Assembly: GCA_011051715.1 (NCBI GenBank)
Contig: DRKP01000163.1
Span: 1 to 57,060 of the forward strand
Reading direction: 5' to 3'
DNA from: Sedimenticola thiotaurini
GTDB taxonomy: Bacteria > Pseudomonadota > Gammaproteobacteria > Chromatiales > Chromatiaceae
Length of the DNA stretch: 57,060 bases
Positions 1 to 29,806 of the stretch are shown piece by piece. The notes under the pieces are model-generated. The model was given only the letters and a program-made list of their open reading frames with translations, was not told where the DNA came from and made no database searches. Made by a program: the position numbers and the translations under genes. The number at the start of each line of letters is the position of its first letter. Positions within the stretch are counted from its first letter, which is position 1.

Positions 1-140
1 GGCCAAGGGCCAAGGGCCAAGGGCCAAGGGCCAAGGGCCAAGGGCCAAGGGCCAAGGGCCAAGGGCCAAGGGCCAAGGGCCAAGGGCCAAGGGCCAAGGG
101 CCAAGGGCCAAGGGCCAAGGGCCAAGGGCCAAGGGCCAAG
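1..140. repeat. Heptanucleotide tandem array, GGCCAAG x20
   Basis: Twenty perfect contiguous copies of GGCCAAG run from the first base of the window to 140, so the array may extend further to the left. The unit is 7 bp, not a multiple of 3, so changes in copy number would shift any frame passing through it. I see no gene in it. It lies downstream of the korB/korA/ferredoxin block. A second, unrelated heptamer patch at 43150-43212 shows that 7-bp arrays recur in this genome. Heptameric short tandem repeats are known from cyanobacteria and some large sulfur bacteria; their function is unclear. Confidence 0.97.
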
Positions 141-204
141 GGGCGGCTGGACTGAGTCCAATCCTCGATTACTCCTGCTCCGTCCCGCTCGGCCCTGGTA
201 CCGC

Positions 205-290
205 TCCGTCAGCTCGTCCACACCCGATTCGTCCGGGCTCAGCGGTTTGCCGGGATGAATGCATCTGGAGAGGCAGATCTCCCCCGCCTC
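205..290 (-). pseudogene. Degenerate duplicate of the ferredoxin-domain tail
   Basis: About 85 bases here align with roughly 366-451, the last part of the neighbouring ferredoxin-tailed gene, in the same orientation. Read on the minus strand the copy gives EICLSRCIHPGKPLSPDES, against EICPSRCIHPGKPLNPDEP in the intact gene. The reading frame is kept for about 28 codons, then similarity stops. There is no start codon, no upstream CxxCxxC half-site and no in-register stop, so this is a non-functional remnant of a local tandem duplication. It sits between the heptamer array and the stop codon of the intact gene. The rest of 141-347 holds repeated CTCGGCCCT words and no recognisable gene. Confidence 0.75.
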
Positions 291-347
291 TCCCCGATCA
301 CTGCTGCTCCATCCCCACTCGGCCCTGTTTTTCCTCGGCCCTCGGCC

Positions 348-2861
348 CTAATTAAACACTGCCGCCCGCTCCACCAGCTCGTCCAGGCCCGGCTCGTCCG
401 GGTTCAGCGGCTTGCCGGGATGAATACACCTGGAGGGGCAGATCTCCGCCGCCTCCACCAGCTGGGCATAGGTGCCGGCGCTGGTGTCGGCGATGATGGC
501 CTGGTTGTTCTCGTTGTAGACGAACATGATCGGATTGATCGCCAGGCAGTCGTTGCAGCTGGTGCAGAGGGGGCTGTCGATCCAGGGATCGTCGAAGCCG
601 CCGATCTCCTCTTCCTCCTCTTCACCGGTGACAGTGGTGTCTGTTTCCTCTTCCGGCCCCGGGGCGGTGTCCGCGGCAGCAGTCTCTGCTGCTGGTGCCG
701 GGGTGGCCGGGCGGGCGACGATGCCGGCACTGGTGAGGTCCATTCCCATCAGCACCTCGGTCAGCCGGCCCATCACCTCACCGGCGGTCTCCGCGCGCGC
801 CTGGGCCAGCTCGGCCTGGTGCCGCGCCTGCAGCTCGTCGATCCGGGCCGCGGCCTCGGCCTCGGCCTGCTCCCGCACCCGGCTCTCGGCCTGCTCCACA
901 TAGCGGTTCCGCACCCCGGCCATCTCCTGCAGGCTGTGCCAGAAGTTGAGGCGGTCGCGGCAGGCGTGGACCAGGGTGCGGCTGATCACCAGCTGCTGCA
1001 GGGTGCCCTGGCGGTCCACGCCCCAGACGTAGGGCAGGTAGCGGGGGGCCTCCTCCCTTGGCAGCGCCAGGTAGTCGGCCAGCGGCAGCAGGTCGTCCGA
1101 TTCGCACAGTGCCGGCACCAGGGCGAAATGGTGGCGCAGGCGCGGCATCAGCAGGGCGTAGTCGGCGAAGGTGAAGGCCAGTTCCTGCTCCACCCGGTTG
1201 CCGCTCTCGTCCCGATAGGCGAAGGGGTGGACCGGCCAGTCCCTCTCCACCTGGGGATTGCCGTCGAACTCCATGCGGTCGGCGAAACGGTCGCCACGGG
1301 AGGGATCGACGCGGAAGAAGGGGTGGACCCGTCCCTCCAGGGCGGCGCCGGCCACCAGCCAGCCGTTGAGGGAGGTCTCGGTGCCGACGGTCCTGAGACC
1401 GGTGTTGATCAGATGCAGGCTGGTGCGGGTGGCATCCAGCGCCTGCAGGTAGCCGGCCAGCAGGTGCTCGTGGCGGGCGGCGGAGGTCTGGGCCACGAAT
1501 GCCTGGCGGTGGGCGATGCCCAGGTATCCCAGCTCGGTACGGTAGGCGCTGAACGGATCCTCGTCCGGACGCGCGCCCGGGTTGTTGTGGGCCTGGACCC
1601 GGATCATCACCTGCACCGGCCGGCCGGAGTTGAGCAGTCGTGAGAAGTGGGCCATGCCGGCGCCCGCCATCCGGTCGGCGCCCTCCAGCGCGATCACCGT
1701 CGGCACCAGTTGCAGCTCGTCACGGGAGAAGCCCTCCCAGTCGAAGCGGGCGAACCAGGGGTCGTGGATCGACGGATCGTAGAGGTCGTCCCGCTCCAGC
1801 CGGGCGATGCGCAGGGCGGCGAACACCTCCGCCAGCCGCTCCGCCTTGCGGTCGAACAGGGTGGCCGCCTGGGCCACCGGGTCGGGATCGCTCAACACCT
1901 CGACGTCGGCCTGCTGCTGCAGCCAGCTGTCGTCGGCCAGGGAGCCGACATGGATGAAACGGATCCGGACCGGGTCTTCCCGGTAGCCCTGCAGGGTGGC
2001 GAGGGCCTGCTCCACCCGCCGGCGCCGGGATTCGGGCATGCGCAGGGAGCCGTGGGAGTGGTCCATGATGTGGGACAGCGCCTCCGGATCCAGCAGGTCG
2101 GCAGCGGCGCCGGCGCTCTCCCGCAGCCGCGCCGGCTCGATCGCCTCCAGTGACTTGCCCTTCTCCACCTCGAGCAGCCGGGTGAGGTCGCGGATCCCCT
2201 CCTGTACCTGCTCCTGGAAACGGGCCAGGCGCGGGCCGGAGAGGCTGCGCACCACGTGGATCAGCAGCTGGATGGCGGGGTAGTGGCCATAGCCGAGCAG
2301 CTGCCCCTGCTCCGGAATCCGCTCCAGCAGGCGGTCGAGATCGGCCTGCAGGCGCCCGCCGTTCTCCTGGTCCAGGGCCAGGTGTTCCAGCAGCCGCTGT
2401 GCCGATCGCTGCAGCAGTGGCCGCGCCGGCACCGGCCCCTCCAGCGGCGGCTCCCCGTCGCTGCCACCCAGGCGACGGCGCAGGTCCCGTTCCAGCCAGG
2501 GGAGGTTGTCCTTCAGGATGCGCGCCGCCTCTTCCCCCGGAGCGAACCCGTCCACCGTCTCGCGCAGGAGGCGGGCGAGGGGGCGGGCGAGCCGGTCGGG
2601 GGTGACGTTCTCCGTGCTGTCCGACGGGGGGGCCAGGTACAGGGGGTAGTCGTAGCGCAGCCGGCTGTTGTCCCGGAACGGGTCCAGCAGGGCGGGCAGG
2701 GTGTCGGCGGACACCGGCTCCAGCTTGTCCCTGGCCTGGGGGTTGCCCAGGTGGAAGTGGCGCAGGGTGTGCATGATCTGCTTCGACGCATCCGCGTCCC
2801 TGACCGCGCTCGGCAGGGTCGGCAGGGGGGCTTCGGTTCGGGCGGTGGCGTTCATCGGCAT
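348..2861 (-). CDS. Large KorAB-associated protein with C-terminal [4Fe-4S] ferredoxin domain
   Basis: This 837-residue protein follows korA and korB on the same strand, 69 bases after korB, so it probably works with the oxidoreductase. Only the last ~80 residues are recognisable: a ferredoxin-like module with Cys766, Cys769 and Cys772 (CTSCNDC) and Cys808 and Cys812 (CPSRC), enough for one [4Fe-4S] cluster plus a spare cysteine. Before it lie a coiled-coil-like, Ala/Glu/Gln/Arg-rich segment (about 640-700) and an acidic linker with a run of glutamates (about 725-750). Residues 1-640 are soluble, with no signal peptide or membrane segment, and I do not recognise a family. A role as electron donor or docking subunit for 2-oxoglutarate synthase is inferred from position and the ferredoxin tail. 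ATG at 2861 has another in-frame ATG two codons on; neither has a strong Shine-Dalgarno. Confidence 0.8.
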   Translation of the reverse strand: MPMNATARTEAPLPTLPSAVRDADASKQIMHTLRHFHLGNPQARDKLEPVSADTLPALLDPFRDNSRLRYDYPLYLAPPSDSTENVTPDRLARPLARLLRETVDGFAPGEEAARILKDNLPWLERDLRRRLGGSDGEPPLEGPVPARPLLQRSAQRLLEHLALDQENGGRLQADLDRLLERIPEQGQLLGYGHYPAIQLLIHVVRSLSGPRLARFQEQVQEGIRDLTRLLEVEKGKSLEAIEPARLRESAGAAADLLDPEALSHIMDHSHGSLRMPESRRRRVEQALATLQGYREDPVRIRFIHVGSLADDSWLQQQADVEVLSDPDPVAQAATLFDRKAERLAEVFAALRIARLERDDLYDPSIHDPWFARFDWEGFSRDELQLVPTVIALEGADRMAGAGMAHFSRLLNSGRPVQVMIRVQAHNNPGARPDEDPFSAYRTELGYLGIAHRQAFVAQTSAARHEHLLAGYLQALDATRTSLHLINTGLRTVGTETSLNGWLVAGAALEGRVHPFFRVDPSRGDRFADRMEFDGNPQVERDWPVHPFAYRDESGNRVEQELAFTFADYALLMPRLRHHFALVPALCESDDLLPLADYLALPREEAPRYLPYVWGVDRQGTLQQLVISRTLVHACRDRLNFWHSLQEMAGVRNRYVEQAESRVREQAEAEAAARIDELQARHQAELAQARAETAGEVMGRLTEVLMGMDLTSAGIVARPATPAPAAETAAADTAPGPEEETDTTVTGEEEEEEIGGFDDPWIDSPLCTSCNDCLAINPIMFVYNENNQAIIADTSAGTYAQLVEAAEICPSRCIHPGKPLNPDEPGLDELVERAAVFN

Positions 2862-2930: not shown

Positions 2931-3884
2931 TCAGATGGAGAAGCGGTCCAGCGCGGATTCGATGGCCGCCAGTTTCTCCGCATTGGTCTTGTCCAGGCCG
3001 CGGGCGGAGGCGTCCTCGTACACCACGGCGTCGGGATTGCGGTAGAGCAGACCCATGGGGACGCGGCTGCTGTCGCGGGCGATCTCCATCGCCCCGAGCC
3101 AGTCGGCCGGGTCGTGCTCCCGCTGGTTCTCGAACAGCCGCCGGACGCTGTCGTCCACCGGAATACCATCCTCGTGGTGCAGCAGCAGGATCCGCGACGC
3201 ATCCTCCTGCAGCGGCTTGCAGAAGGAGTCGGAGAAGACCGGGCAGCGCTGGATGATGCGCACGAAGCTGGTACCCCGGTGCCGGTGGGCGGCCCTGATG
3301 GTCTCGTACAGCATGGGCGGATTCCAGTCCACCACCTGGGCGACGAAGGAGACGTTGCTGATCCCCAGGGTGACCGTCAGCGGGTTGAGCGCCGGCAGCG
3401 GTGCCCCGTGGGGATGGGTGTTGGTGGTCATGCCGGTGGGGCTGGTGGGCGAGGTCTGCTTCTTGGTCAGGCCGTAGATGGCGTTGTCGAATACCAGCAC
3501 CACCATGTCCATGTTGTAGCGGATCGAGTGGATCCAGGGGCCGGCGCCGATGGAGAAGCAGTCGCCGTCGCCGGTGGCCACCCAGACGTCGAGGTCGGGG
3601 CGGCGCGCCTTGACGCCGTTGGCCAGGGGCAGGGCGCGGCCGTGCAGGCCGTGGAAGCCGTAGGTGCCCATGTAGTGGGGCAGCCGGCTGGAGCAGCCGA
3701 TACCGGACACCGCCACCGTCTTCTCCGGCGGCAGCTGGGCATCGCGCAGCACCCGGTGGACCGTGTTGAGCACGGCGAAGTCGCCGCAGCCGGGGCACCA
3801 GCGCGCCTCGCCGCCGGCGTAGTCGCCGAGGGTGAAGTAGCGTTCGAAGACGTCCAGGGACCAGTCTGCTTTCAATCCAAACAT
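2931..3884 (-). CDS. korB: 2-oxoglutarate:ferredoxin oxidoreductase, beta subunit
   Basis: The 317-residue thiamine-diphosphate subunit of a two-subunit 2-oxoacid:ferredoxin oxidoreductase. With KorA it would carboxylate succinyl-CoA to 2-oxoglutarate using reduced ferredoxin, a key irreversible-direction step of the rTCA cycle. CPGCG (Cys30, Cys33), GIGCSS (Cys64) and a later QRCP cysteine fit the four ligands of the single [4Fe-4S] cluster of this family. GDGDCFSIG (about 105-113) followed by DNAIYGLTKKQ is the ThDP/Mg site. Length is normal. The gene starts 16 bases after korA. The substrate could in principle be another 2-oxoacid; 2-oxoglutarate is preferred because of the surrounding rTCA genes. 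Confidence 0.93.
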   Translation of the reverse strand: MFGLKADWSLDVFERYFTLGDYAGGEARWCPGCGDFAVLNTVHRVLRDAQLPPEKTVAVSGIGCSSRLPHYMGTYGFHGLHGRALPLANGVKARRPDLDVWVATGDGDCFSIGAGPWIHSIRYNMDMVVLVFDNAIYGLTKKQTSPTSPTGMTTNTHPHGAPLPALNPLTVTLGISNVSFVAQVVDWNPPMLYETIRAAHRHRGTSFVRIIQRCPVFSDSFCKPLQEDASRILLLHHEDGIPVDDSVRRLFENQREHDPADWLGAMEIARDSSRVPMGLLYRNPDAVVYEDASARGLDKTNAEKLAAIESALDRFSI

Positions 3885-3900: not shown

Positions 3901-5811
3901 TCAGTTGTTCAGGGTGTTCAGCTTCGCCTCGATCGCCTGGTAGAGCATGCCGGGCTGGAGCGGGTGGCCGTAGACCACCGACCAGCAGTCCACGTCGACC
4001 AGGGTCTGGGCCCGCAGCACCATGGCGAGCTGGGCGTAGCGCCGGTTCTCCGGGGTGATCAGGGGGGCGTCGGCGCGATCGCTGTAGTTGATCTCCACCG
4101 TCATCACCTGCTTGAAACGGCCGAAGATCTCCGGCAGGCCGGGCTCCAGCGGTGACAGGAAGTGCAGGTGCAGGGAGGAGACCCGCCTGCCCTCGCTGCG
4201 CAGCAGGTCCACCGCCTCCTCGATGGCCCCCCTGGTGGAGCCCCAGCCGACCACCAGCAGGTCGCCCTCGTCGTCGCCGTGCACCTGCGGTCTCTTCAGG
4301 GTCCTGTGCAGGGCCGCCAGCTTGCGGCTGCGGTACTCCATGCTGCGCTGGTTGGAGTCGGAGTCGTAGGCCACCTTGCTGCGGTTGGTGTGGGCCAGGC
4401 CGGTGAGTACGTACTCACCTCTGCGCTGGCCGGGTATCGGGCGCTGGGACAGGCCGGTCTCCTCGTTCCAGTCGTAGGGCGGCACCGAGGGATCCCACGG
4501 CGACTGGTCCACCGGCGCGCCGAGCCACTCCTCGTTCAGCTCCGGCCGCGGGTAGGGTTGCACCCCGGTGGCCAGGTTGGCGTCGGTGAGCATGATCACC
4601 GGGATGCGGAAGGTCTCCGCCAGCCGGCGCGCCAGGATGACGTAATGGAAGCACTCCTCGATGGTGGCCGGGGCGATCACCACCTTCGGGGCGTCGCCGG
4701 GCTCGCCGTAGAGGGAGGAGAGCAGATCCGCCTGCTCCACCTTGGTCGGCAGCCCGGTGGAGGGACCGCCACGCTGCACGTCGATGATGACGATGGGGAT
4801 CTCGGCCATCACCGCCAGGCCGATCATCTCGGTCTTCAGGGCCATGCCGGGGCCGGAGGTGATGGTGCAGGCGGTCTTGCCGGCGAAGGAGGCGCCGAGG
4901 GCGAAGCCGATGGCGGCGATCTCGTCCTCGGCCTGGTGGACGAAGCCGCCGACGCCGTCGAACACCTCGGCGATGTAGTGGGAGGCGGAGGTGGCCGGAG
5001 TGATCGGGTACATGGAGACCAGTTCCATGCCGGCGGCCATGACGCCCAGTCCCACCGCCTGGTTGCCGTTGCTGATCATCATGCGCCGGCCGTGGCCGGT
5101 CTCCTGGGGGGGGATCTCCCAGTGGTAGGGCACCTGCTCGGCGGCGAAGCGGTAGCCGGCGTCGAACAGGTCGTGGTTGGCCTGGATCACCTTGTCGCCC
5201 TTGGCGGCGAAGGTGTGGGCGATCTCCTGTTTCGCCAGGTCGGTGTCTCGACTGTAGATCTGGCAGATCATGCCGAGCACGAACATGTTCTTGCCCCGGC
5301 GAGGGTTGGCCACCAGCTTCAGGCACTCCTCCTCCAGTGGCAGTTCGTGCACCACCAGGCCGTGCTCCTGGAACTCTGCGACGGCGGCGGCGTACTGCTG
5401 GCGGATCTTCTCCTGGGGGTCGCTGGCCCACTTGTTGTCCAGCAGCACGATGGTGCCCTCCTTGTAGGCACCGTTGGCGATACGGGAGAACAGTACCTGC
5501 TCGTTGAAGGCCACCACCAGATCCGCCTCGTCGCCCATGTTGGTGACGCGGCTGGAACCGAGGCGGATGCGGATGCCGCTGGCCCCGGCCGGGGAACGGG
5601 CCGGCGGCTGGATCTCGGCCGGAATGATCTCCACGGTCCAGACGCCGTTGCCCATCTTGCCGCTGATGGTGCCGAAGGTCTGGCCGCATTTCTGGGCCCC
5701 CTCACCGGAATCGCTGACGATCTCGACGATGTGTTCCGGGATACGGAGTGCATCGCCACCGCGGTCTTGCATCGGAACGACGTTGCCGCTCTGCTCGCTG
5801 TGTGTCGTCAT
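3901..5811 (-). CDS. korA: 2-oxoglutarate:ferredoxin oxidoreductase, fused gamma-alpha subunit
   Basis: A 636-residue subunit in which the gamma domain (about residues 30-230, with FGTISGKMGNGVWTVE near the start and a conserved FNEQVLFSR segment) is fused ahead of the alpha domain (from about 245, with MYPITPATSASHYIAE, SGPGMALKTEMIGLA and GGPSTGLPTK). The alpha domain binds substrate and CoA at the interface with KorB. This fused gamma-alpha architecture is that of KorA/VorB-type enzymes. ATG at 5811 is preceded by AGGAAGG, a good ribosome binding site. The gene is first in the korA-korB-ferredoxin-protein set and has a candidate promoter of its own at 5970-5998. Confidence 0.93.
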   Translation of the reverse strand: MTTHSEQSGNVVPMQDRGGDALRIPEHIVEIVSDSGEGAQKCGQTFGTISGKMGNGVWTVEIIPAEIQPPARSPAGASGIRIRLGSSRVTNMGDEADLVVAFNEQVLFSRIANGAYKEGTIVLLDNKWASDPQEKIRQQYAAAVAEFQEHGLVVHELPLEEECLKLVANPRRGKNMFVLGMICQIYSRDTDLAKQEIAHTFAAKGDKVIQANHDLFDAGYRFAAEQVPYHWEIPPQETGHGRRMMISNGNQAVGLGVMAAGMELVSMYPITPATSASHYIAEVFDGVGGFVHQAEDEIAAIGFALGASFAGKTACTITSGPGMALKTEMIGLAVMAEIPIVIIDVQRGGPSTGLPTKVEQADLLSSLYGEPGDAPKVVIAPATIEECFHYVILARRLAETFRIPVIMLTDANLATGVQPYPRPELNEEWLGAPVDQSPWDPSVPPYDWNEETGLSQRPIPGQRRGEYVLTGLAHTNRSKVAYDSDSNQRSMEYRSRKLAALHRTLKRPQVHGDDEGDLLVVGWGSTRGAIEEAVDLLRSEGRRVSSLHLHFLSPLEPGLPEIFGRFKQVMTVEINYSDRADAPLITPENRRYAQLAMVLRAQTLVDVDCWSVVYGHPLQPGMLYQAIEAKLNTLNN

Positions 5812-6101: not shown

Positions 6102-7346
6102 TCAACCCTTGATGGCCTCTTCGTACTCGTCCATGAAATGGTAGAGGGAGCTTTCCAGCACCTTCACCGCACCGTCCAGCAGATGGCAGCGACCGGTTCC
6201 GGGGAGGATACGGCAGAGGTTGATCAGGGAGTCCAGGTCGGCGCGGGATCCCTGGCCGGTGTCGATCTTGCCCAGCAGCAGGGATATATAATAGGTGCCG
6301 GTCTTGCAGGGCGGGCACTGGCCGCAGGAGGAGGCGGCGAAGAAGTCCACGTACTCGGTGACCCGCTTGACGATGCCGGTACCCTCCGACACCACGATCA
6401 TCGCCCCGGTGCCGAGACTGGAGCGGCGCTGCTGCACCGAATCGAAATCCAGTGGCACGTCCAGGTCCTGCGGCGTCAGGATGGTGTTGGAGGGTCCGCC
6501 GGTGAACACCGCCTTCAGCTCCTTTCCCAGCAGCATGCCGCCACCATAGGTGTCGATCAGCTCCCGCAGCGGAGTCCCCATCGGCAGCTCGTAGGCGCCG
6601 GGATGGAGCACGTCGCCGCTGAGGCAGTAGATCTTGGTGCCGCAGGCATCACCGCGCCCGAGCCGGCGGTACCAGTCGGCACCGTTGCGCACGATGTTGG
6701 GCACGTTGGCCAGGGTCTCGATGTTGTTGATCAGGGTGGGGTGTCCATGCACTCCGGATTCCGCCGGATAGGGGGGCTTGCCGCGGGGGAAGGGGAAGCG
6801 GCCCTCCACCGACTCGATGGCGGCGGTCTCCTCGCCGCCGATGTAATGGCCGGAGCTGGCCATCACCCAGTACTCCAGTGGCTGGTTGAGGGCCTTGCAG
6901 GCGGCGTAGTAGAGATCCGAGCGCTCCCACTCCTCGACCGCATTGAGCATGGTCTCGAGCGACCCCTTCTGGTCCGGGTTGATGTAGAAGACGATGTGGT
7001 CGATGCCGGTGGCGAGGGCGGTGATGGTGGCGCCCTCGATCACCTGGTACGGCGTCTCCTCCAGCAGGATGCGGTCCTTGAAGGTCCCGGGCTCGTCCTC
7101 GTTGCCGTTGCAGATCAGGTACTTGGTAGTCCCTGGGCGGGTGGCGACGAATTCCCATTTGCGCCAGGTGGGATAGCCGCTGCCACCCAGTCCACGCAGC
7201 CCGGCGTCCCGGATCAGGGGGATCAGGGCCGCGGGCTCCTGCAGCGCCATCTGCAGCGCCTCGCCGCCGTGGTTGCCGAGCCAGGCCTGGAAATCGGCGC
7301 CCACCCGGTTGCTCTGGTGCAGCAGGACCTGGTTCAGGATGGTCAT
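6102..7346 (-). CDS. NuoF-like NADH-binding flavoprotein subunit of the fumarate reductase module
   Basis: A 414-residue homologue of the 51-kDa FMN/NADH subunit of complex I and NAD-linked hydrogenases and formate dehydrogenases. GLGGSGYPT (52-60) and NEDEPGTFKDR (82-92) match the NADH and FMN loops, GGEETAAIESVEGRFP the following conserved segment, and Cys341, Cys344, Cys347 plus Cys387 the ligands of the N3-type [4Fe-4S] cluster. There is no NuoE or NuoG here. Instead the gene follows frdA by 12 bases, with frdB upstream. The simplest reading is that it feeds electrons from NADH to the FrdB clusters and then to FrdA, making a soluble NADH:fumarate reductase. A multi-subunit soluble NADH-dependent fumarate reductase is known from the rTCA bacterium Hydrogenobacter thermophilus; the comparison is inference. 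Confidence 0.85.
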   Translation of the reverse strand: MTILNQVLLHQSNRVGADFQAWLGNHGGEALQMALQEPAALIPLIRDAGLRGLGGSGYPTWRKWEFVATRPGTTKYLICNGNEDEPGTFKDRILLEETPYQVIEGATITALATGIDHIVFYINPDQKGSLETMLNAVEEWERSDLYYAACKALNQPLEYWVMASSGHYIGGEETAAIESVEGRFPFPRGKPPYPAESGVHGHPTLINNIETLANVPNIVRNGADWYRRLGRGDACGTKIYCLSGDVLHPGAYELPMGTPLRELIDTYGGGMLLGKELKAVFTGGPSNTILTPQDLDVPLDFDSVQQRRSSLGTGAMIVVSEGTGIVKRVTEYVDFFAASSCGQCPPCKTGTYYISLLLGKIDTGQGSRADLDSLINLCRILPGTGRCHLLDGAVKVLESSLYHFMDEYEEAIKG

Positions 7347-7358
7347 GGCTCCATCTTC

Positions 7359-8969
7359 TCAGTTTCGGCGCAGGCCATCGTAGTCGGTGTCGACCTCGAA
7401 CTTGGCGTACTCCGGGAACAGCATCGGCCCCTTCGGCTCCATCGGCATCCCGGCCAGGGTCAGCTCCCGGCGCAGATTGCTGATGTGCTCCAGGGAGATC
7501 TTCTTCGGCCCCCGGTGGTGGCTGTTCTCCGCTGCATGGGCACCGGCGCGGCGGCCGAAGCTGATGATCTCGAGCAGGGCGTTGCCCATGATCCGGTTCT
7601 TGCCGTGGATGCCGCCACTCACCTCGCCGATGCAGTAGAGCCCGGGGACGCTGGTGCGGCCGAACTCGTCGATCACCACGCCGCCGTTCTGATAGTGCAG
7701 GGTGGGGTAGATCAGTATCGGGGTGGTGCTGAGGTCGATGTGGCAGCGGCGACCCAGTTGTACCAGCTTGGGGAAACGGGCCTGGAGGATGCCGGGGTTG
7801 CGCAGCTCCAGCCCCGGTGTATCGAGCCAGATACCCTCCGCGTCGTCGTCGACGCGGACAGCGCGTCCCTCGGCGCACTCGCGCAGGATGGCGGAGGAGA
7901 CGTGGTCGCGGCTCTTCAGCTCGTCGACGAAACGCTCGCCGTGGGCGTTCAGCATCCAGGCGCCGGCGGAACGCACCCCCTCGGTGATCAGGGTGCCGGC
8001 CAGGTGCTGGGGGTGGGCCAGCCCGGAGGGGTGGTACTGGAACGAATCCAGGTCCCGCAGCCGGGCGCCGAGGCGGTAGGCCAGCACCAGGCCATCGCCG
8101 GTGGCGCCAAAATGGTTGGAGGTGGGGAAGCGGTTGATGTGGACCCGGCCGATGCCGCCGGTGGCGATGATCACCGATTTCGCCTTGATCAGGGTGTAGC
8201 GGCAGTTCTTCAGCGAGAACAGCACGGCACCGCCGCAGTGGCCGACGTCGTCGGAGAGCAGCTCCACCGCCGGGCTGTAGTCCATCACCTCGACGTTGGT
8301 ATTGGCCACCGACTCACGCAGTACCCGCATCATCTCCAGGCCGGTGTAGTCGCGGTAGTAGGCGACGCGGTTGGCACTGGTGCCGCCGGCCCGGCGCAGC
8401 AGGATGTCGCCGAACCGGTCCAGGTCGAACTGCATGCCCTGCTGGATCAGCCAGCGGATCACCTCGGGGCCGTCCATCACCATGCGTGCCACCAGGCTGC
8501 GGTCGGCGTGGTAGTGGCCGGCGCGCAGGGTGTCGTCCAGGTGCGCCTGGGGGGTGTCGTCGCGCTCGATGGAGGCCTGGATCCCTCCCTCGGCCATCAC
8601 CGTGTTGCTGTCTCCCAGCCGTAACTTGGTGGCCAGGGTCACCCGGGCCCCGGCGCGGGATGCCACCAGGGCCGCGGCACAGCCGGCGCCGCCACCGCCG
8701 ATCACCAGCACGTCGGTCTCCCGCACCGGCGCCGCCGCCAGGTCGGCCTCGTCGATACGGGCGTCGGCCTGCAGCAGATCCGCCAGCTGGCGGTGGCACT
8801 TGTCCCCCTTGTTGGGGCCCACCTTCAGGGTGACGATGGAGCCTTCGTAGTGGTCCGGGTGGAAGCGCGACAGCAGCTCCTCCGGCGGGACGCTCTCTTC
8901 CGCCGGCGGGCGTTCCGGCAGCGGCCGGTAACGGGCCAGGGCCTCGGCATAGGGGATGCCCGTGCTCAT
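7359..8969 (-). CDS. frdA: Fumarate reductase flavoprotein subunit, soluble type
   Basis: A 536-residue FAD protein of the succinate dehydrogenase/fumarate reductase family, reducing fumarate to succinate. Residues 91-96 (GGGGAG) form the dinucleotide fold. The loop that carries the covalently bound FAD histidine in membrane enzymes reads DSNTVMAEGGI, with Asn122 in place of His, so FAD is probably bound non-covalently. Active-site segments HPSGL, LITEGVRSAGAW, SRDHVSSAI and the C-terminal HGKNRIMGNALLE are present. The C-terminal helical domain is shorter than in SdhA (about 590 residues). No membrane anchor gene is adjacent. The gene lies between frdB and the NuoF-like gene in a three-gene operon. 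Confidence 0.88.
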   Translation of the reverse strand: MSTGIPYAEALARYRPLPERPPAEESVPPEELLSRFHPDHYEGSIVTLKVGPNKGDKCHRQLADLLQADARIDEADLAAAPVRETDVLVIGGGGAGCAAALVASRAGARVTLATKLRLGDSNTVMAEGGIQASIERDDTPQAHLDDTLRAGHYHADRSLVARMVMDGPEVIRWLIQQGMQFDLDRFGDILLRRAGGTSANRVAYYRDYTGLEMMRVLRESVANTNVEVMDYSPAVELLSDDVGHCGGAVLFSLKNCRYTLIKAKSVIIATGGIGRVHINRFPTSNHFGATGDGLVLAYRLGARLRDLDSFQYHPSGLAHPQHLAGTLITEGVRSAGAWMLNAHGERFVDELKSRDHVSSAILRECAEGRAVRVDDDAEGIWLDTPGLELRNPGILQARFPKLVQLGRRCHIDLSTTPILIYPTLHYQNGGVVIDEFGRTSVPGLYCIGEVSGGIHGKNRIMGNALLEIISFGRRAGAHAAENSHHRGPKKISLEHISNLRRELTLAGMPMEPKGPMLFPEYAKFEVDTDYDGLRRN

Positions 8970-9012
8970 GAGGCGGGGTTCCCGGCCCGATCCGGGCCTT
9001 GCTGGAGCCGTC

Positions 9013-9639
9013 TCATTCCGGGATCTGCAGCTCGCCCCGGGCGAGCTTCTCCAGCCGGTTGATCAGGTTGGATGGCCGGATGTGGAAGTAGGCCGTGACC
9101 CGCCGGGCGAAGATGCCGACGTGGTTGGGGGCGATGAACTCGGGGCAGGCGGTCATGCAGAAGTTGCACATGACGCACTCGATGAACAGTTCGCCGGCCT
9201 CCCGGAAACGCCCCTTGCTGGCCAGTTCCACCCCCTTTTCCACGTCGATCCCCTTGGGGCAGGAGCGGGTGCAGCCGGAGCAGTGGCGGCAGTGGTCGGC
9301 CTCCGGAAAGATGCGGTTGAAATGGGCCTGGACCTCCCACGAATTGTTGATCTCGCCCAGCTCGTAGGTGTGGTGGGTGGGGGTGGGGAAGACCAGGAAA
9401 CTGACCTCCATACCCTCTTCGATCAGGGTCTGGCAGCCGAGCTCCATGGTCACCTCGGCGGTACCGGCGCGGCGTACCATGATGCGGCAGGAGCCGCATA
9501 CCCCCTCCAGACAGCCGACGCTCTTCACCCGGGGGTAGCCTGCGTGCCACAGGGCCTGGATGGTGGAGAGCCTGGCCGGGGCCGTGATCGACTTGCCGTC
9601 GATGACCACGTTGACCAGAGGTTCGTCGCTTTCGCTCAT
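9013..9639 (-). CDS. frdB: Fumarate reductase iron-sulfur subunit
   Basis: A 208-residue iron-sulfur protein. Cys43, Cys48, Cys51 and Cys69 form a plant-ferredoxin-type [2Fe-2S] site; Cys117/120/123/127 and Cys155/158/161/165 are two CxxCxxCxxxCP motifs. Classical FrdB uses a [3Fe-4S] site with different spacing, so this one may carry two [4Fe-4S] clusters and is nearer to the TfrB/HdrC-like and soluble fumarate reductase subunits. It is first in the operon frdB-frdA-nuoF-like. I chose the ATG at 9639 because the much longer upstream open frame runs into the inverted-repeat region and lacks family similarity. Confidence 0.87.
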   Translation of the reverse strand: MSESDEPLVNVVIDGKSITAPARLSTIQALWHAGYPRVKSVGCLEGVCGSCRIMVRRAGTAEVTMELGCQTLIEEGMEVSFLVFPTPTHHTYELGEINNSWEVQAHFNRIFPEADHCRHCSGCTRSCPKGIDVEKGVELASKGRFREAGELFIECVMCNFCMTACPEFIAPNHVGIFARRVTAYFHIRPSNLINRLEKLARGELQIPE

Positions 9640-9901
9640 GCCTGTCCGAAGGGTCTCCCGGTTCCCGCCCGCCGCGCCGCCGCAGCGCGGGAGCCCGGCG
9701 GGTGGCTCCGGTGGCGGTCGCTCCCGGGGAGCGTCGTAGTCGCTGCAGAGTCGCCGCGGGACGGCATGGGGCAGGCCCCATCGACCCGGACGCGCAGGGA
9801 CCAATTCTCCACTCTGGGTGGGGTTGTGTCCAGCCGGCCCGGCAGTGGCCCCCCGTCGCGCCCGACGCCGGTAGCCCGGCCTTCCCTTATTGACTATGAT
9901 T

Positions 9902-10147
9902 ATCAACCCGGCAACCCAATATGTCGTGTTCAGAGCCTCAGGCATCTTCCCTGTCAAGGCGCGCAACGCCGGGAGGGGAGATGCCTGAGGCTCCTGGCGT
10001 ATTGATATCAAATGACGGGCCGTGCTGTGCGCGCCCGCGGACTGCGTTGTCGAAACTGGCTGCAGGAGTGCTGCAGCGGCGTTTCGACGCCTTGCCGCGA
10101 ACGCGCACAGCATGGCTGAACACGATATATTGGGTCACCGGGTTAAT
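9902..10147. repeat. Long interrupted inverted repeat between frdB and acn
   Basis: The right arm, 10071-10147 (77 bases), pairs with two left segments: 10019-10065 (inner) and 9902-9933 (outer). The outer arms, 9902-9933 and 10116-10147, match at 28 of 32 positions and all four differences are transitions. The inner arms share GTGCTGTGCGCG-type, TCGAAAC and GCTGCAG blocks around a 5-base loop (10066-10070). An 85-base segment (9934-10018) interrupts only the left arm. Read outward on each strand both outer arms translate to a matching stretch, LNTTYWVAGLI and LNTIYWVTGLI. Possibilities are a MITE-like element, remains of two inverted copies of a longer repeat, or a duplicated regulatory site serving both divergent operons. 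The rest of 9640-10231 shows no gene. Confidence 0.85.
9934..9992. repeat. 18-bp-stem hairpin inserted in the left arm of the inverted repeat
   Basis: The arms 9934-9951 and 9975-9992 match at 17 of 18 positions (AGCCTCAGGCATCTTCCC and its complement) around a 23-base loop. The hairpin makes up most of the 85-base segment that splits the left arm. A perfect 10-base palindrome, TTGATATCAA, follows at about 10002-10011. It has no T-tract, so it is not an ordinary terminator. Confidence 0.85.
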
Positions 10148-23477: not shown

Positions 23478-26207
23478 CTAACCGACGTGGCTGCACCGGC
23501 TCGCCGGTGTACGGGTGTCCATGTTGCGGCCGCGGTTGATGTGGTCCTCGATCTCCGCCGCGCTGCCGATCATGCGGCCGAACAGGAAGGTGGTGAAGGC
23601 GGCCGCCTCCATCACCTGTTCGCTGATCTCCCCCTCCACATGGGGCTGCCACAGCATCTTCAGCAGGATCACCGCGATCACCGCGTCGACATTGACGCAG
23701 TAGACGTTGCGGCTGACGCCCACCTTGTACAGGGCCTGCACCAGCTCGTGATAGAAATCCAGGAAGATGTTGTAGCTGCCGCGCCTGCTGAACAGGTCGC
23801 TGACGAACACCTCCCGCGGATCATAGTTCACCGGCTCGCCCTTGAACACCGGATGATTGATGCAGGGGATCTTGGCGTAGGAGAGATCCCCCGCCGCCTT
23901 GGCCTTTTTCTTGTATTCCAGATATTCGCGGGCGTAGTCCAGCGCCATTGCAGCCAGATCCAGGCCGTGCTCGCGGGAGCCGGGATTGGCCAGCCCGGTG
24001 TCGCGGAAGCGGTCCAGCAGGAAGGAGATCGCCTCGAAGCCGTTGCCGCCGTGGGCGTAGCCGGTGTGGCTGAGGAAGCCCAGGTAGCACTTGTTGATCT
24101 GTACCCGCTTCGGCGCTTCCGGCCCGTCCGCGCTCACCGCTCCCTTGGCCCCCTGGGCGGAGATGGTGCCGGGCCCGTTGGAGATGATCAGCCCCAGCAG
24201 CACCGAGAACGAGAACAGGGCCTCCATGTCGGGGCGCCGGCCGAGCAGGGCCAGGTGGGCGGTCTCGGCGAAGCTCCAGTCGCGCATCAGGGCATCGTCG
24301 TCGACGCCACAGAAGCGGCCGGGCTGCTGCTGTTCCTCGTCCGCCGCGCTGCCCACCAGGGCGCTGTAGATGCGGAAGTGCCAGGGCAGATTGACCACGG
24401 TGGTGATGGAGAGGCGTTTGCGCATCAGCGCCGGCCACGCCAGGTGGGTGGTGACGGCGGCCAGGATCACCTGCCCGCGCAGGCTGCCGCCCCGGCGTTC
24501 CGCCAGTGCCTGGAGGAACTCGATGAACACCGACTTGGCACCGCGCGCGGCCATCGCCGCCAGCATCGCCCCGCCACGGCTGCAGGCGGCGTCGGAGAGC
24601 AGCACCCCGGCGGCGTCCCCGGCGAGCGCCCGTTCCAACGGTCCGCTGAAATCGAAGGCGGTGTCCGACGGGTCGTTGAGGTCGCTGTGGCGGAACAGGT
24701 CGATGAGGGTGGCGGCGGCATCGCGCGCCGCCGCCACCTCGTCCGGGCCGAGCAGGGCGATCGCCGCGGAGAGGCTGGTGTTGGGGCTGTTGCCGGCCCG
24801 GCGGGCGGCCTGGGCGGCGGCCAGACCGATCTGTCCACTCTGGTTGACGAAGGCGTTCAGCGCCACGTTGGCCAGGGCGGTGCCGTTCATGTCCGGGTAT
24901 TCCCGGACCAGGGCCTGGACCAGGTTCTCCTCGTAGGAGCGGGTGGCCGCGTCGAGGATGCTGGTGCCGTGGATTCGGGTCACCTGGCTGTTCGGGTCCA
25001 TCATCGATGCGCCCGAGGCGTCCTTCATCACCTGGCGCGGGAACACCGCCCCCACCTGCTCCTCCAGCGCGGCGATCTGCTCGTCGTAGGGCGGCACCGC
25101 CTTCACCACCGGTGGATTGAGCTGCTCCGGCAGCTTCAGCCCCTGGGTGTTGCTGAACCAGCACTTGAGGGAGAGGTCGCCGCGCGGCTCGAAGTCGGGC
25201 TCGATGCCGTTCCTCGCCATCACCGCCGTCATCGCCGCCGGGATGTGGGCGATGTTGACCACCACCGCCCCCTTCTCCGAGCAGACCGGGTTCTCCGGGG
25301 TGAAGATGTCGTCGACGCCGAACTTCTGCAGGAACCACTCCTCCTTGGCGGCGGCGTTGTCGCCGCTGCCGGCGATGGCGCCGGCGTGACCGCAGGCCTT
25401 GGTCAGCCTCGCCTTCCAGCGCCCCACCACGCAGGCCACCACCGGCTTGTGGAACCGGAGTTCGTGTTCGTAGTAGCCGCCCGGCTCGATGTACATCACC
25501 GCCGCCTTCGAGCGGTCGTCGTTGTGGAAGGCGTGGGCCCACTCCATGGCGGCGTAGTGGATGTAGAGGTCCTTGCCGGAGGAGAGGGAGACGGTGGTGC
25601 CCCAGCCGGCGGTCAGCAGGTAGACGGCGATGGTGGTGGTGAAGTTGCCGGAGTTGGAGTAGATCGCCACCGAGCCCGGCACCAGCGACTCCTCCGGCTG
25701 GCTGCCGCCGAGGGCACCGCCGATGCGCACCCGGTTGTGGGCGTCGGCGATCCCCAGGCAGTTGGCGCCGAAGATGTCGATGCCGTGCATCTGGCCGATG
25801 GCGCGGATCACCCGCGCGTCCCGGACCGGCACCTTCTCGGTGAGGATCACGATCTTGTCGATGTCGGGATTGACCCGCACCGCCTCCAGCACGCCGTCGC
25901 GCACGCCGGCGGGGGGCAGGTAGACCACCACCACGTTGAAGCGGTGGCCCGCCGCCATCGCCTCCGGCAGGTTGTCGTAGATCGGGATGTCGCCGGCCGC
26001 TGTCTTCATCACGCTGCCGGAGCGGCCCGGCGCGGTGCCGCAGACCACGTTGCCGCCGGAGAAGGCATGGCTCACCGGGGTGACGGTACGGCTCTCGCCG
26101 CCGGTGATGTTGAGCACGCAGACCCGGTCCTCGCGGGTGGCCAGCCGGGCCAGGGAGTCGATACCCACGTAATAGTGGGGGAATGCCGCTACGCCTTGGG
26201 GATGCAT
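23478..26207 (-). CDS. aclA: ATP citrate lyase, large (alpha) subunit
   Basis: 909 residues. The N-terminal ~320 residues are succinyl-CoA-synthetase-alpha-like, with the CoA loop ITGGESRTVTPVSHAFSGGN, GANCLGIAD, YSNSGNFTTTI and the phosphohistidine loop ACGHAGAIAG (His274). A linker of about 270 residues follows. The C-terminal third (from about 590) is citryl-CoA-lyase/citrate-synthase-like, with NGPGTISAQGAKG and YNIFLDFYHELV. The overall size is well above the ~610 residues of the classical bacterial AclA and the motifs are divergent, which fits the type II enzyme described from tubeworm symbionts and Magnetococcus; that assignment is inferred. Cleaves citrate with ATP and CoA. GAGGAGGAGG precedes the start. 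Confidence 0.88.
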   Translation of the reverse strand: MHPQGVAAFPHYYVGIDSLARLATREDRVCVLNITGGESRTVTPVSHAFSGGNVVCGTAPGRSGSVMKTAAGDIPIYDNLPEAMAAGHRFNVVVVYLPPAGVRDGVLEAVRVNPDIDKIVILTEKVPVRDARVIRAIGQMHGIDIFGANCLGIADAHNRVRIGGALGGSQPEESLVPGSVAIYSNSGNFTTTIAVYLLTAGWGTTVSLSSGKDLYIHYAAMEWAHAFHNDDRSKAAVMYIEPGGYYEHELRFHKPVVACVVGRWKARLTKACGHAGAIAGSGDNAAAKEEWFLQKFGVDDIFTPENPVCSEKGAVVVNIAHIPAAMTAVMARNGIEPDFEPRGDLSLKCWFSNTQGLKLPEQLNPPVVKAVPPYDEQIAALEEQVGAVFPRQVMKDASGASMMDPNSQVTRIHGTSILDAATRSYEENLVQALVREYPDMNGTALANVALNAFVNQSGQIGLAAAQAARRAGNSPNTSLSAAIALLGPDEVAAARDAAATLIDLFRHSDLNDPSDTAFDFSGPLERALAGDAAGVLLSDAACSRGGAMLAAMAARGAKSVFIEFLQALAERRGGSLRGQVILAAVTTHLAWPALMRKRLSITTVVNLPWHFRIYSALVGSAADEEQQQPGRFCGVDDDALMRDWSFAETAHLALLGRRPDMEALFSFSVLLGLIISNGPGTISAQGAKGAVSADGPEAPKRVQINKCYLGFLSHTGYAHGGNGFEAISFLLDRFRDTGLANPGSREHGLDLAAMALDYAREYLEYKKKAKAAGDLSYAKIPCINHPVFKGEPVNYDPREVFVSDLFSRRGSYNIFLDFYHELVQALYKVGVSRNVYCVNVDAVIAVILLKMLWQPHVEGEISEQVMEAAAFTTFLFGRMIGSAAEIEDHINRGRNMDTRTPASRCSHVG

Positions 26208-26220
26208 GTCGTCCTCCTCC

Positions 26221-27492
26221 TCAGCCGATACCCAGCCGCTTGGCCACCAGCTCCCGGCCCCCTTCCGCCATCCAGCGGTCCGCCGCCTGGGCGAAGTTGA
26301 CCACCTCGCTCATGGCAGAGTCGTGGCCGAACATCTGGTAGGGCAGGCCGAGGGCGTCCAGGGTGTCGCGCAGGTAGCCCATGCCGCGGATCAGGTTGGG
26401 GCCGCCCCGTCCCACCACCACGTACAGGGGCTGGGGGCCGTGGCTGTTGAAATGGTCGCGCAGGGCATCGGCCATGGCGCGGAAGGTCTCGTAGATGTCG
26501 GTGTTGTTGGCCTTGCCGCCGATGATGAACAGCACGTTGGACTGCTCCAGCCAGTAGGTGTAGACGATGCGGCTGATGTCGTGCATCTTGGCATAGGGCG
26601 GGTTGCCGCCGAAATCGGAGGAGATGGTGGCGGACTCCCCCAGCAGTTCGGTGACCAGGGCGTTGGCGCCGCCGCCGAAGGTCATGGCGGTGATGGTCCC
26701 CTGCTCGTTGATCACGAACACGTCCGACTGCCCCTGGTAGGTGCGCAGCCGGTTCACCTCCTGCTCGAACTCCGAGTAGCTGGAGGCATCCACGGATGCG
26801 GGCAGGTCGAGCCGTTTCCAGTTTGGGTCGTCGTCGTCGAAGGCGCACTTGAAGTCGCAGGCCACCGGCGTCAGGCGGCCGTTCCGTTCCGGCCGCATGC
26901 GGATCGGGTTCAGTTCCAGCGTGGTCATGCCATAGGTGTGGTAGAGATCCCACAGCCTGGGCAGGCTCTGCACCAGCGGGCTGATCAGCTCGCGCGGCGC
27001 CTTCAGCCGCTTCAGCGCGTTGGAGACGACGAACCCCTTGAGGCCGGTGAGGGGATCGAACGGGATGCGGGCGATCTTCTCCGGCGGCAGCTCCTCGATG
27101 TCCATGCCGCCGTAGTGGGTGAGGGTGATGATCGGTGCCCGGTACTCGGTGCTGTCGGTGAGGGAGAAGTAGATCTCGTGCTCCGCCGGCACCGCCCCCT
27201 CGAAAGTGACCCCTTCCGCCTTCACCGGGGTGCCGTTGTGGAAGTGTTCGGCGAAGTAGAGCCGCGCCTTCTCCTTCATCGCGGTGGGGACGTCGCGGGC
27301 CCGGCCCAGCAGGCCGGCCTTGCCCTTCCTGCCCACCCCGCCCTTGAACATGGGCTTGATGAAGATCTCGCCGTGACGGTCGATCAGACCGGCGATCCGG
27401 TCGGCGTCCGCCTCCGGACCCAGCACCTCGGAGGTGGGGAAATCCACGTAATCGAGGAGCCGGGAGCCCCAGTACATTCCTGTTATCTGCAT
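26221..27492 (-). CDS. aclB: ATP citrate lyase, small (beta) subunit
   Basis: 423 residues with an ATP-grasp, succinyl-CoA-synthetase-beta-like N-terminal part (IFIKPMFKGGVGRKGKAGLL, TTLELNPIRM) and a CoA-ligase/flavodoxin-like C-terminal part (MTFGGGANALVTELLG, FGGNPPYAKMHDISRIV, IIGGKANNTDIYETF). With AclA it makes ATP citrate lyase, the diagnostic rTCA enzyme giving oxaloacetate and acetyl-CoA. Length agrees with AclB of other bacteria. It is 13 bases before aclA and 91 bases after the mdh-like gene. Confidence 0.92.
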   Translation of the reverse strand: MQITGMYWGSRLLDYVDFPTSEVLGPEADADRIAGLIDRHGEIFIKPMFKGGVGRKGKAGLLGRARDVPTAMKEKARLYFAEHFHNGTPVKAEGVTFEGAVPAEHEIYFSLTDSTEYRAPIITLTHYGGMDIEELPPEKIARIPFDPLTGLKGFVVSNALKRLKAPRELISPLVQSLPRLWDLYHTYGMTTLELNPIRMRPERNGRLTPVACDFKCAFDDDDPNWKRLDLPASVDASSYSEFEQEVNRLRTYQGQSDVFVINEQGTITAMTFGGGANALVTELLGESATISSDFGGNPPYAKMHDISRIVYTYWLEQSNVLFIIGGKANNTDIYETFRAMADALRDHFNSHGPQPLYVVVGRGGPNLIRGMGYLRDTLDALGLPYQMFGHDSAMSEVVNFAQAADRWMAEGGRELVAKRLGIG

Positions 27493-27583
27493 GATCTCTC
27501 TGCTCCCTGGCAGTGGATTGACCGGTGGATCCCGACGCCCGGCCGCCGCACGCCGCGGGTCGCTGCCATGCCCGGCGGCGGGA

Positions 27584-28519
27584 TCACAGCCGCAGGGCGG
27601 CCACCGTCGCCCGCACCCGCTCGGTGGTGGCGTCGAACAGCGCCCGTTCCTCCGGCGTCAACTGGAATTCGATCACCCGCTCCACCCCGCCGCTGCCGAT
27701 GACACAGGGTACCCCGAGGAACAGTCCGTCGACACCGTATTCCCCCCGGCACAGGGCGGCGGCGGGGATCACCCGCTTGCGGTCCCGCAGGCAGGCCTCG
27801 GCCATCTCCACCGCCGCTGCCGCCGGGCTGTAGAAGGCGCTGCCGTTGCCCAGCAGCTGCACGATCTCGGTACCCGCCTCCCGCGTCCGCGCCACGATGG
27901 AGCGGATCTGCTCTGCTGTGAGCAGGTCGGCCAGGGGGATGCCGCCAACGGTCGCTGTCCGGGTCAGGGGGATCATGGAGGGGCCGTGGCCGCCGATCAC
28001 CAGGGCCGAGACATCCGCCACCGACAGGCCGGTCTCCATGGCGATGAAGCTGCGGAAGCGCCCCGAGTCGAGCGCCCCTGCCATTCCGGCCAGACGCTGC
28101 GGCGGCAGCCCTGAATAGTGGTGGAAGGCGTAGACCATGGCGTCCAGGGGATTGGTGGTGAGGATGACGAAGGCATCCGGCGCGTGCTGGCGCACCTGCT
28201 GCGCCACCTGGCGTACGATGCGGAGATTGGTGTCGAGCAGATCCTCCCGGTCCATGCCCGGTTTCCGGGGCAGCCCGGCGGTGACGATCACCAGGTCGGC
28301 CCCGCCGATGGCCGCGTAGTCGCCGCTGCCCCGGATCGCGACGTCGTGGCCGCCATGGGGGCGCAGCGCCATCAGGTCGAGGGCCTTGCCCCGCATCGGG
28401 CCCTCCAGTTCGGGCCGGTCGACGAGGACCACATCGCCGAGGGCCTTCTGGGTGATCAGCAGCGCCAGGGTCCCGCCGATCTGCCCCCCGCCGATCAATG
28501 CGATTTTCCTTCGGCCCAC
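27584..28519 (-). CDS. Malate/lactate dehydrogenase family protein, divergent paralogue
   Basis: A 311-residue member of the LDH/MDH superfamily. GGGQIGG is the NAD loop, GLPRKPGM with RE following gives the mobile substrate loop arginines, TNPLDAMVY and GGHGPSMIPL follow. The last motif is normally GGHGDxMVPL: the aspartate after the catalytic histidine is proline here, which is unusual. I start at the GTG at 28519, because GGGAGGAGGA lies just upstream and this gives 311 residues, equal to the paralogue across the divergent gap. An ATG at 28537 is the alternative. As first gene of the acl operon it may act in rTCA malate formation, but altered activity cannot be excluded. Confidence 0.8.
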   Translation of the reverse strand: MGRRKIALIGGGQIGGTLALLITQKALGDVVLVDRPELEGPMRGKALDLMALRPHGGHDVAIRGSGDYAAIGGADLVIVTAGLPRKPGMDREDLLDTNLRIVRQVAQQVRQHAPDAFVILTTNPLDAMVYAFHHYSGLPPQRLAGMAGALDSGRFRSFIAMETGLSVADVSALVIGGHGPSMIPLTRTATVGGIPLADLLTAEQIRSIVARTREAGTEIVQLLGNGSAFYSPAAAAVEMAEACLRDRKRVIPAAALCRGEYGVDGLFLGVPCVIGSGGVERVIEFQLTPEERALFDATTERVRATVAALRL

Positions 28520-28724
28520 TCTCCTCCTCCCGTCCATCCGGCGACCCGGAACGGGCCTCCGAAGGCTCCAAGAATAATGGAATTCCACGGGATATCCCAG
28601 GGTTGGAGAGGGGTTTTTACGCGGGAGCGGGGCGATAGACAAATTCTATATGGACAGATAATCATCTATGACTATAGTTAGGGTGCCTGCAGGCCATCCC
28701 AAGAAAATAGGATGATCAGCCTAA

Positions 28725-28730
28725 TATAAT
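28725..28730 (+). promoter_or_regulatory. Consensus -10 box upstream of mdh
   Basis: A perfect TATAAT lies 27 bases before the mdh ATG, inside an AT-rich 238-base divergent gap (28520-28757) shared with the acl operon. At the -35 position (28702-28707) the sequence is AGAAAA, a poor match, and there is no extended -10. Such a promoter usually needs an activator, so the gap is a candidate control point for both mdh genes. No gene is seen in the gap. Confidence 0.4.
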
Positions 28731-28757
28731 TTCAAATTTCTGTGGAGAGGAAGAAGA

Positions 28758-29693
28758 ATGAAGAAGATAACCATCGTCGGGGCGGGACGGGTTGGCGAAA
28801 CGGTGGCGCAGATCCTGGCGGAGGAGGAGCTGTGCCGGGAGGTGGCACTGCTGGATGTACGGGAGGATGTACCGGAGGGGGTGGCCCTGGACATCTTTCA
28901 GACCTCTCCCTTCTTCCATTTCGATACCCGGGTGACCGGCAGCAACGATCCGGCGGTCATGGTCGGTTCCGACATCATCGTGGTTACCGCCGGTTTTCCC
29001 CGCAAACCGGGCATGTCGCGCTCGGACGTGCTCGAGGCCAACCTCGGAATCATCGACGAGGTCTGTGACAACGCCGTCAAGTTCGCCCCCGACGCCATGA
29101 TGATCGTGGTCAGCAACCCGGTGGACGTCCTCACCTACCGGGCCGCCGAGCGCACCGGCTGGGGCCGGCAGCGGGTGTTCGGCCAGGCCGGGGTGCTCGA
29201 CTCCTCGCGCATGGCCGGCTTCATCGCCACCGAGACCGGTTTCTCCTCCCGCGACATCACCACCATCGTGCTCGGCGGCCATGGCGACACCATGGTGCCG
29301 CTGCCCCGTTACTGCACCATCAATGGCATTCCCGTCTCCCATTTCATCGATGCGGAGCGGCTGGAGCAGATCATCGAGCGGACCCGTTCCGGTGGCGCCG
29401 AGATCCTGGCCCTGCGCAAGACCAGCAGCGCCTACGATGCCCCGGGGGCGGCGGTGGCGGCGATGATCGACGCGATCAGCCACAACCGGCGGCGGATCAT
29501 GCCCTGCGTGGCGTTGCTGGAGGGGGAGTACGGCGAGAGCGACATCGCCATGGGCGTGCCCTGCATCCTGTGTGAAGACGGGATCGAGGGGGTGGTGGAA
29601 CTCGATCTGGATGAAAAGGAGCGACGCATGTTTGATGAATCGGTGGCCTATATCCGGGGCGATCTCGGGAAGATGAAAGAGATCCTGAAATAA
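28758..29693 (+). CDS. mdh: Malate dehydrogenase
   Basis: 311 residues with intact family motifs: [42 protein letters not shown] and the catalytic [10 protein letters not shown]. Converts oxaloacetate and malate with NAD(H). GGAGAGGAAGAAG precedes the ATG. It is divergent from the acl operon, whose first gene is a more derived paralogue, and it is followed by citrate synthase. It is the safer candidate for the housekeeping/rTCA malate dehydrogenase. Confidence 0.93.
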
Positions 29694-29695
29694 TA

Positions 29696-29709
29696 CGGAC
29701 GTTCGTCCG
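29696..29709. repeat. Short palindrome after mdh
   Basis: CGGACGTTCGTCCG: 6-bp arms around TT, three bases after the mdh stop and 18 bases before the -35 box of the gltA promoter. It may be an operator for gltA or a weak stem at the end of mdh; no T-tract follows. Confidence 0.4.
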
Positions 29710-29726
29710 ATTCTGCTTCCCGAACC

Positions 29727-29755
29727 TTGTTAGCCCCGGAGCAGTCTGTTATACA
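29727..29755 (+). promoter_or_regulatory. Sigma-70 promoter for gltA
   Basis: TTGTTA (29727-29732) and TATACA (29750-29755) are spaced by exactly 17 bases, each matching four of six consensus positions, about 50 bases before the gltA start. It suggests that citrate synthase is transcribed separately from mdh. Confidence 0.5.
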
Positions 29756-29806
29756 GAAGTGAAATCACGATCACACCCGGAATCAGCTGTGAGGAGAGAA
29801 CGACCG

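Follow-up and report, generated by a model that had tools for sequence, protein, structure and literature searches.

How low-potential electrons are supplied to 2-oxoglutarate synthase in organisms living near oxygen is an open energetic question of the rTCA cycle. The electron carriers described for OGORs, as in Aquifex, include a KorD/PorD delta subunit with two [4Fe-4S] clusters and free ferredoxin partners (PMC10052474). In gammaproteobacterial autotrophs, dimeric korAB has been reported by Rubin-Blum et al. (PMC6315080), with Hdr-Flx supply proposed for the four-subunit enzyme, and the Hdr-Flx and KorABCD rTCA clusters of tubeworm symbionts couple electron supply, OGOR and TfrAB at the level of the gene cluster.

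The window analysed here (57,060 nucleotides of contig DRKP01000163.1, from the Sedimenticola thiotaurini assembly GCA_011051715.1) contains a one-strand run, tfrB-tfrA-nuoF-korA-korB, which is continued by an intact open reading frame of 837 codons, P837. The sequence-only reading had placed this gene directly after korB, and the gap is indeed 69 bp on the same strand (Table 1). Electron supply, OGOR and TfrAB are thus likewise coupled by gene clustering, but the locus combines a two-subunit KorAB with Rnf and two degenerate PFORs, and Hdr-Flx was not seen in the operon. The three genes upstream of korA (6102-10113), which are conserved in many orthologues of the locus, probably encode a soluble NADH-dependent fumarate reductase. 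The window also encodes ATP-citrate lyase (23478-27492), monomeric isocitrate dehydrogenase, two malate dehydrogenase-family proteins, citrate synthase and transhydrogenase. The genes for ATP-citrate lyase and citrate synthase cluster, with those of the two malate dehydrogenase-family proteins, at 23478-31102, so the window encodes the citrate step in both directions. Within a partial coverage of the literature, no description of P837 or of a korAB-P837-rnf-giant2 operon was found, the nearest being a 'PFOR-like' gene of the Riftia symbiont (Endoriftia) that responds together with korAB.

Table 1. Coordinates of P837, its segments, its neighbours and the related proteins discussed in the text
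Feature	Position	Strand	Description	Basis
P837	348..2861	minus	837 aa; remnant of PFOR domains V-VI (a degenerate half), ending in a one-cluster ferredoxin	ORF, hhalign, Foldseek
P837 residues 53-178	2328..2705	minus	PFOR domain V remnant, both [4Fe-4S] sites lost	hhalign and cysteine columns
P837 residues 186-650	912..2306	minus	pseudo-domain VI with a TPP-domain fold but neither the proximal-cluster cysteines nor the TPP GDG motif	hhalign, ligand table
P837 residues 651-705	747..911	minus	long helix, probable coiled coil	AlphaFold helix 653-706
P837 residues 706-755	597..746	minus	linker: acidic, disordered, weakly conserved	pLDDT about 30
P837 residues 756-837	351..596	minus	ferredoxin tail, [4Fe-4S] ligands C766, C769, C772, C808; C812 extra	Fer4_13
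Decayed partial copy of the P837 tail (residues 802-832)	201..293	minus	77% identity; translation GEICLSRCIHPGKPLSPDESGVDELTERY	
GGCCAAG 7-bp tandem array	1..140		contig end, downstream of P837	
KorB, beta subunit	2931..3884	minus	TPP motif and cluster cysteines (CPGC, GIGC, GDGD, RCPVF); KorB cluster at C30, C33, C64, C214	PF02775 5e-24, TIGR02177
KorA, gamma-alpha fusion	3901..5811	minus		TIGR03710 513.7 bits, over cut-off
NuoF-like flavoprotein	6102..7346	minus	operon member in many orthologues	PF01512 2.7e-40; synteny
TfrA-like fumarate reductase flavoprotein	7359..8969	minus		PF00890; best NCBIfam model TfrA, under cut-off
TfrB-like iron-sulfur subunit	9013..10113	minus	true start probably internal	Fer2/Fer4 in C-terminal part alone; synteny
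giant1	L006:4960-9918 (own genome, contig C10)		1652 aa, between rnfB and rnfCDGE of second rnf cluster	
giant2	L007:214-4743 (own genome, contig C8)		1509 residues, full-length PFOR relic	
P837-like protein of genome G349	L119:8152-11070		972 residues, three tandem ferredoxin tails, beside korAB	

The statement that about 640 N-terminal residues of P837 match no family stood for single-sequence searches (Pfam, NCBIfam and PDB) but failed once profiles were compared with profiles, since residues 53-836 then correspond to PFOR domains V and VI followed by a tail. The sole domain recognised by Pfam was Fer4_13 (residues 761-814, 30.5 bits against a cut-off of 24.5), and a profile search of PDB sequences returned ferredoxin I as the sole match, so the PFOR homology required profile-profile and fold searches. 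The reference for these comparisons was giant1, a protein of the same genome which by profile is a NifJ-type PFOR (6cin, 6e-95; 1b0p, 4e-85) with an added ferredoxin tail, and which scored 388 bits against TIGR02176, under that model's cut-off. The family profiles of P837 and giant1 aligned with an E value of 1.4e-92 (hhalign). By segments, residues 1-185 matched giant1 domain V (E 1.7e-8, 95% probability), residues 186-327 and 328-650 matched domain VI in order (E 5.6e-7 and 1e-61; 3e-64 when 186-650 was taken as one piece), and the two tails matched each other (E 1e-31). Within the genome, P837 and giant1 share 38% identity over P837 residues 330-675 and 44% over the ferredoxin tail. All controls (reversed giant1, giant1 domains I-IV, KorA, KorB, RnfC and TfrA) remained at or below 2.3% probability; this highest value belonged to giant1 residues 1-740, so domains I-IV are not on the P837 chain.

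The predicted structure agrees with this assignment. In the AlphaFold model (mean pLDDT 75.6, pTM 0.66), an ordered body continues into a helix (residues 653-706), which a disordered stretch of some 50 residues (approximately 704-755) connects to an ordered ferredoxin. All 24 Foldseek hits at E <= 1e-3 were PFOR-type enzymes or related beta subunits. PFOR ranked first, together with the beta subunits of oxalate and pyruvate oxidoreductases, followed by those of 2-oxoacid oxidoreductases and by ferredoxin I; whole-chain TM-scores were low because only about 300 residues align. Both approaches point to PFOR for the N-terminal part, and the matched superfamily also contains KorAB, so this part does not belong to an unrelated enzyme family. 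At the level of sequence profiles, P837 is shown to descend from a ferredoxin-tailed, Rnf-associated PFOR, of which it represents the C-terminal half, domains V-VI with the ferredoxin tail. Descent from PFOR also displaces the view of P837 as a duplicated KorB, to which no profile similarity was detected by hhalign. An unrooted tree, informative on grouping rather than on duplication order, placed P837, giant1 and giant2 in separate clades, with two divergent P837-like proteins beside P837.

The descent of domains V-VI and of the tail, together with the beta-domain fold, is what P837 shares with NifJ-type PFORs (1b0p and 6cin, via giant1), whereas it has half their length, lacks domains I-IV, the TPP motif and the proximal, medial and distal clusters, and is genetically tied to KorAB. 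Each of the 42 near-full-length orthologues that make up the family alignment, none of which contains an internal stop, has lost the thiamine-diphosphate motif and every one of the 12 cysteines that bind clusters in the PFOR core. In domain V, the eight cysteine columns corresponding to two [4Fe-4S] clusters are substituted or deleted in 42/42. The proximal-cluster columns of domain VI hold F/I/L/V, Y (42/42), L/V/I/F/A and L/M/V, and the GGDG columns hold E/D, mixed residues, A (39/42) and mixed residues; a later N of the TPP motif is kept in 38/42. P837 fails every catalytic PFOR feature tested and was therefore not classified as a PFOR. By comparison, none of the 21 giant1 sequences has lost the GDG motif, any of the 12 core cysteines or any of the four tail ligands.

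In 31/31 sequences, the second degenerate protein, giant2, keeps the eight domain-V cysteines (two clusters) but has no tail, no TPP motif and no proximal cluster. As judged from the conserved ligands, P837 and giant2 are PFOR relics degraded in complementary ways, because giant2 keeps two clusters without a tail and P837 keeps only the tail ligands. The loss of catalytic residues, together with the decayed tail copy downstream of P837, might be taken to mark a decaying PFOR pseudogene, but over 40 genomes from several families have an intact open reading frame, the ferredoxin ligands are present in 42/42 and the place in the operon is conserved; conservation already refutes this reading, which is left with practically no likelihood.

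The modelled helix makes the proposed coiled coil probable, and the acidic linker and one-cluster ferredoxin were borne out by the charge of residues 706-758 (15 D+E against 1 K+R) and by the Fer4_13 match. The tail contains cysteines 766, 769, 772, 808 and 812, the first four of which, the cluster ligands, are present in 42/42 orthologues. It shares the CxxCxxC...CP pattern and the fold of one-cluster ferredoxins such as Desulfovibrio africanus ferredoxin I (1fxr/1dax), and in the predicted structure it superposes on 1fxr with an rmsd of 0.9 A (Foldseek). In contrast to a free one-cluster ferredoxin, however, it is tethered to a 750-residue body through the coiled coil and the acidic linker. 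The additional cysteine of the CPSRC end is not unusual, contrary to the sequence-only reading: D. africanus ferredoxin I has CPVQC, 19/21 intact PFORs carry a second cysteine, and two divergent relatives lack it, which makes a role as cluster ligand improbable.

With a mean pairwise identity of 68%, the tail is the best conserved region of the family. This value would suit a merely oversized soluble ferredoxin whose PFOR-derived body is a passive leftover without specific docking, as would the tripling of the tail in genome G349 and the frame splits between body and tail in G177 and, likewise, between giant1 and its tail in G006. The body, however, is well conserved too (63% in the domain VI part against 27% in the linker), contains many invariant residues and is present in every orthologue, which makes such a passive role improbable.

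A link to KorAB was surveyed in 146 genomes of the window's family, a single family whose genomes are related by kinship. KorA and P837 occurred together in 37 genomes, KorA alone in one, in which korA lies at a contig end, P837 alone in none and neither in 108 (Fisher p = 6e-34, uncorrected for kinship, the genomes of one family not being phylogenetically independent). Because giant1 occurs in many genomes without korAB, P837 tracks korAB rather than giant1. This co-occurrence (37/38 versus 0/108), together with a ferredoxin as the sole intact metal site, upholds the idea of a dedicated KorAB partner and electron carrier. Judged by these genomic data, P837 presumably works like the dedicated ferredoxin partner of an OGOR, a role it would share with the KorD/PorD delta subunits and free ferredoxins, although unlike the delta subunit it has one cluster, is far larger and is PFOR-derived. 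It was not assigned as a KorD subunit, having one cluster only and no match to the delta-subunit model in NCBIfam at E <= 1, nor as an Rnf subunit, its body matching RnfC with 0.1% probability (hhalign) and the other Rnf subunits being compared by Pfam and NCBIfam only.

The start of P837 lies no more than 150 bp from korB in 33 of the 39 measurable loci, some loci being limited by MAG fragmentation. The usual gene order is [tfrB-tfrA-nuoF]-korA-korB-P837-rnfB-giant2-rnfC; the korA to rnfC part is shared by most loci of the family and by several further families of the class, and its median gaps of 27, 28 and -4 bp suggest translational coupling. In the genome of the window, RnfB2 and giant2 are encoded on contig C8, at one end of which stands the GGCCAAG array that also opens the window; orientation and synteny fit a placement of C8 after P837, although C74 and C122 carry the array as well. 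Among 15 chosen korAB genomes, giant2 was present in 13, the copy of G461 being divergent, and was missing from G349 and from G009, which is fragmentary. Genera g23 and g59 depart from the usual order: either at least one gene intervenes between korB and P837, or giant2 is found at another place in the genome, so a complex strictly encoded by one operon is not universal. A search of G349 found neither giant2 nor an RnfB2-type gene, which argues against an obligatory link to giant2; since this genome does have korAB with a triple-ferredoxin relative of P837, the core role would seem to be the delivery of electrons for KorAB.

We consider it probable that P837 is a dedicated electron-transfer subunit of KorAB whose ferredoxin swings; in most cases it would connect KorAB with giant2 and Rnf, probably in the service of reductive carboxylation. 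In two-subunit OGORs, the KorB cluster is the sole cluster of KorAB. The dead domain V-VI body may serve as a docking platform for KorAB and/or giant2, so that the tethered ferredoxin could swing between the KorB cluster and giant2/RnfB, while the two clusters of giant2 and RnfB would join the arm to the Rnf pump. The ion gradient would then allow Rnf to provide low-potential electrons for the reductive carboxylation of succinyl-CoA, and the arm could be reversed during 2-oxoglutarate oxidation. We infer both the contacts of P837 and the direction of electron flow. A stronger proposal would unite KorAB, P837, giant2 and the operon's own Rnf in a single membrane-bound machine. Its two complementary, catalytically dead PFOR relics would serve as an electron bus, and the ion gradient would directly drive succinyl-CoA carboxylation without a free ferredoxin pool; this proposal is tentative, and on balance we would expect it not to hold.

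Evidence for the reductive direction comes from the fumarate-reductase genes alongside, from the enrichment of ATP-citrate lyase in korA genomes (27/38 versus 9/108 others, p = 2e-13) and from the fact that 34/38 of them, including the genome of the window, also have OGDH E1. On the other hand, AclA was undetected in 11/38 korA genomes of the family, which counts against this direction and leaves a strict link to rTCA, for which the sequence-only reading had proposed a survey, unsupported. The same anatomy and operon are compatible with an oxidative role, in which KorAB oxidises 2-oxoglutarate and P837/giant2 pass the electrons to RnfB, while Rnf reduces NAD+ and pumps ions, the purpose being energy conservation rather than CO2 fixation. 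Besides the AclA-less genomes, this role would suit the citrate synthase of the window, the dimeric korAB of tubeworm symbionts, which adjoins TCA genes including gltA (PMC6315080), and the response of Endoriftia to H2S limitation, during which dimeric korAB and the 'PFOR-like' gene, not equated here with giant2 or P837, fell while rTCA genes rose (PMC11636981). It is nevertheless an unlikely alternative, given that OGDH E1 already covers the oxidative step, that ATP-citrate lyase is strongly enriched with KorA and that the TfrAB-NuoF genes resemble a soluble fumarate reductase. The sequence-only reading had also offered P837 as an electron-bifurcating adaptor, and the flavoproteins encoded in the same operon (NuoF-like and RnfC) could be cited in favour of a bifurcating or regulatory function; P837 itself, however, has one cluster, and neither Pfam and NCBIfam nor the fold reveals a site for flavin, NAD or TPP, so bifurcation by P837 was rejected and an adaptor of either kind appears very improbable.

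The korAB-Rnf cluster, joined through two complementary PFOR relics, offers concrete proteins for the question of electron supply near oxygen, and P837 illustrates a route by which an enzyme is hollowed out into an electron-transfer scaffold. Among the gammaproteobacterial MAGs with the cluster are those of symbionts, from a tubeworm-like annelid host record and from a lucinid bivalve, so the cluster bears on symbiont carbon fixation.

Several further observations concern the wider set of PFOR-like proteins. Giant1 is an apparently intact ferredoxin-tailed PFOR, apparently paired with Rnf, and the same arrangement is found in relatives. In G177 (L114:8649-11154), the split between the body of P837 and its ferredoxin tail, which occupy different frames, falls in the linker, and in G006 (L123) giant1 and its tail are separate open frames. 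PFOR-like giants of yet another, third group, about 1720 aa long, were encountered in several relatives, at G132:C308, G092:C1627, G064:C15, G011:C256, G114:C513 and G058:C1:985179.
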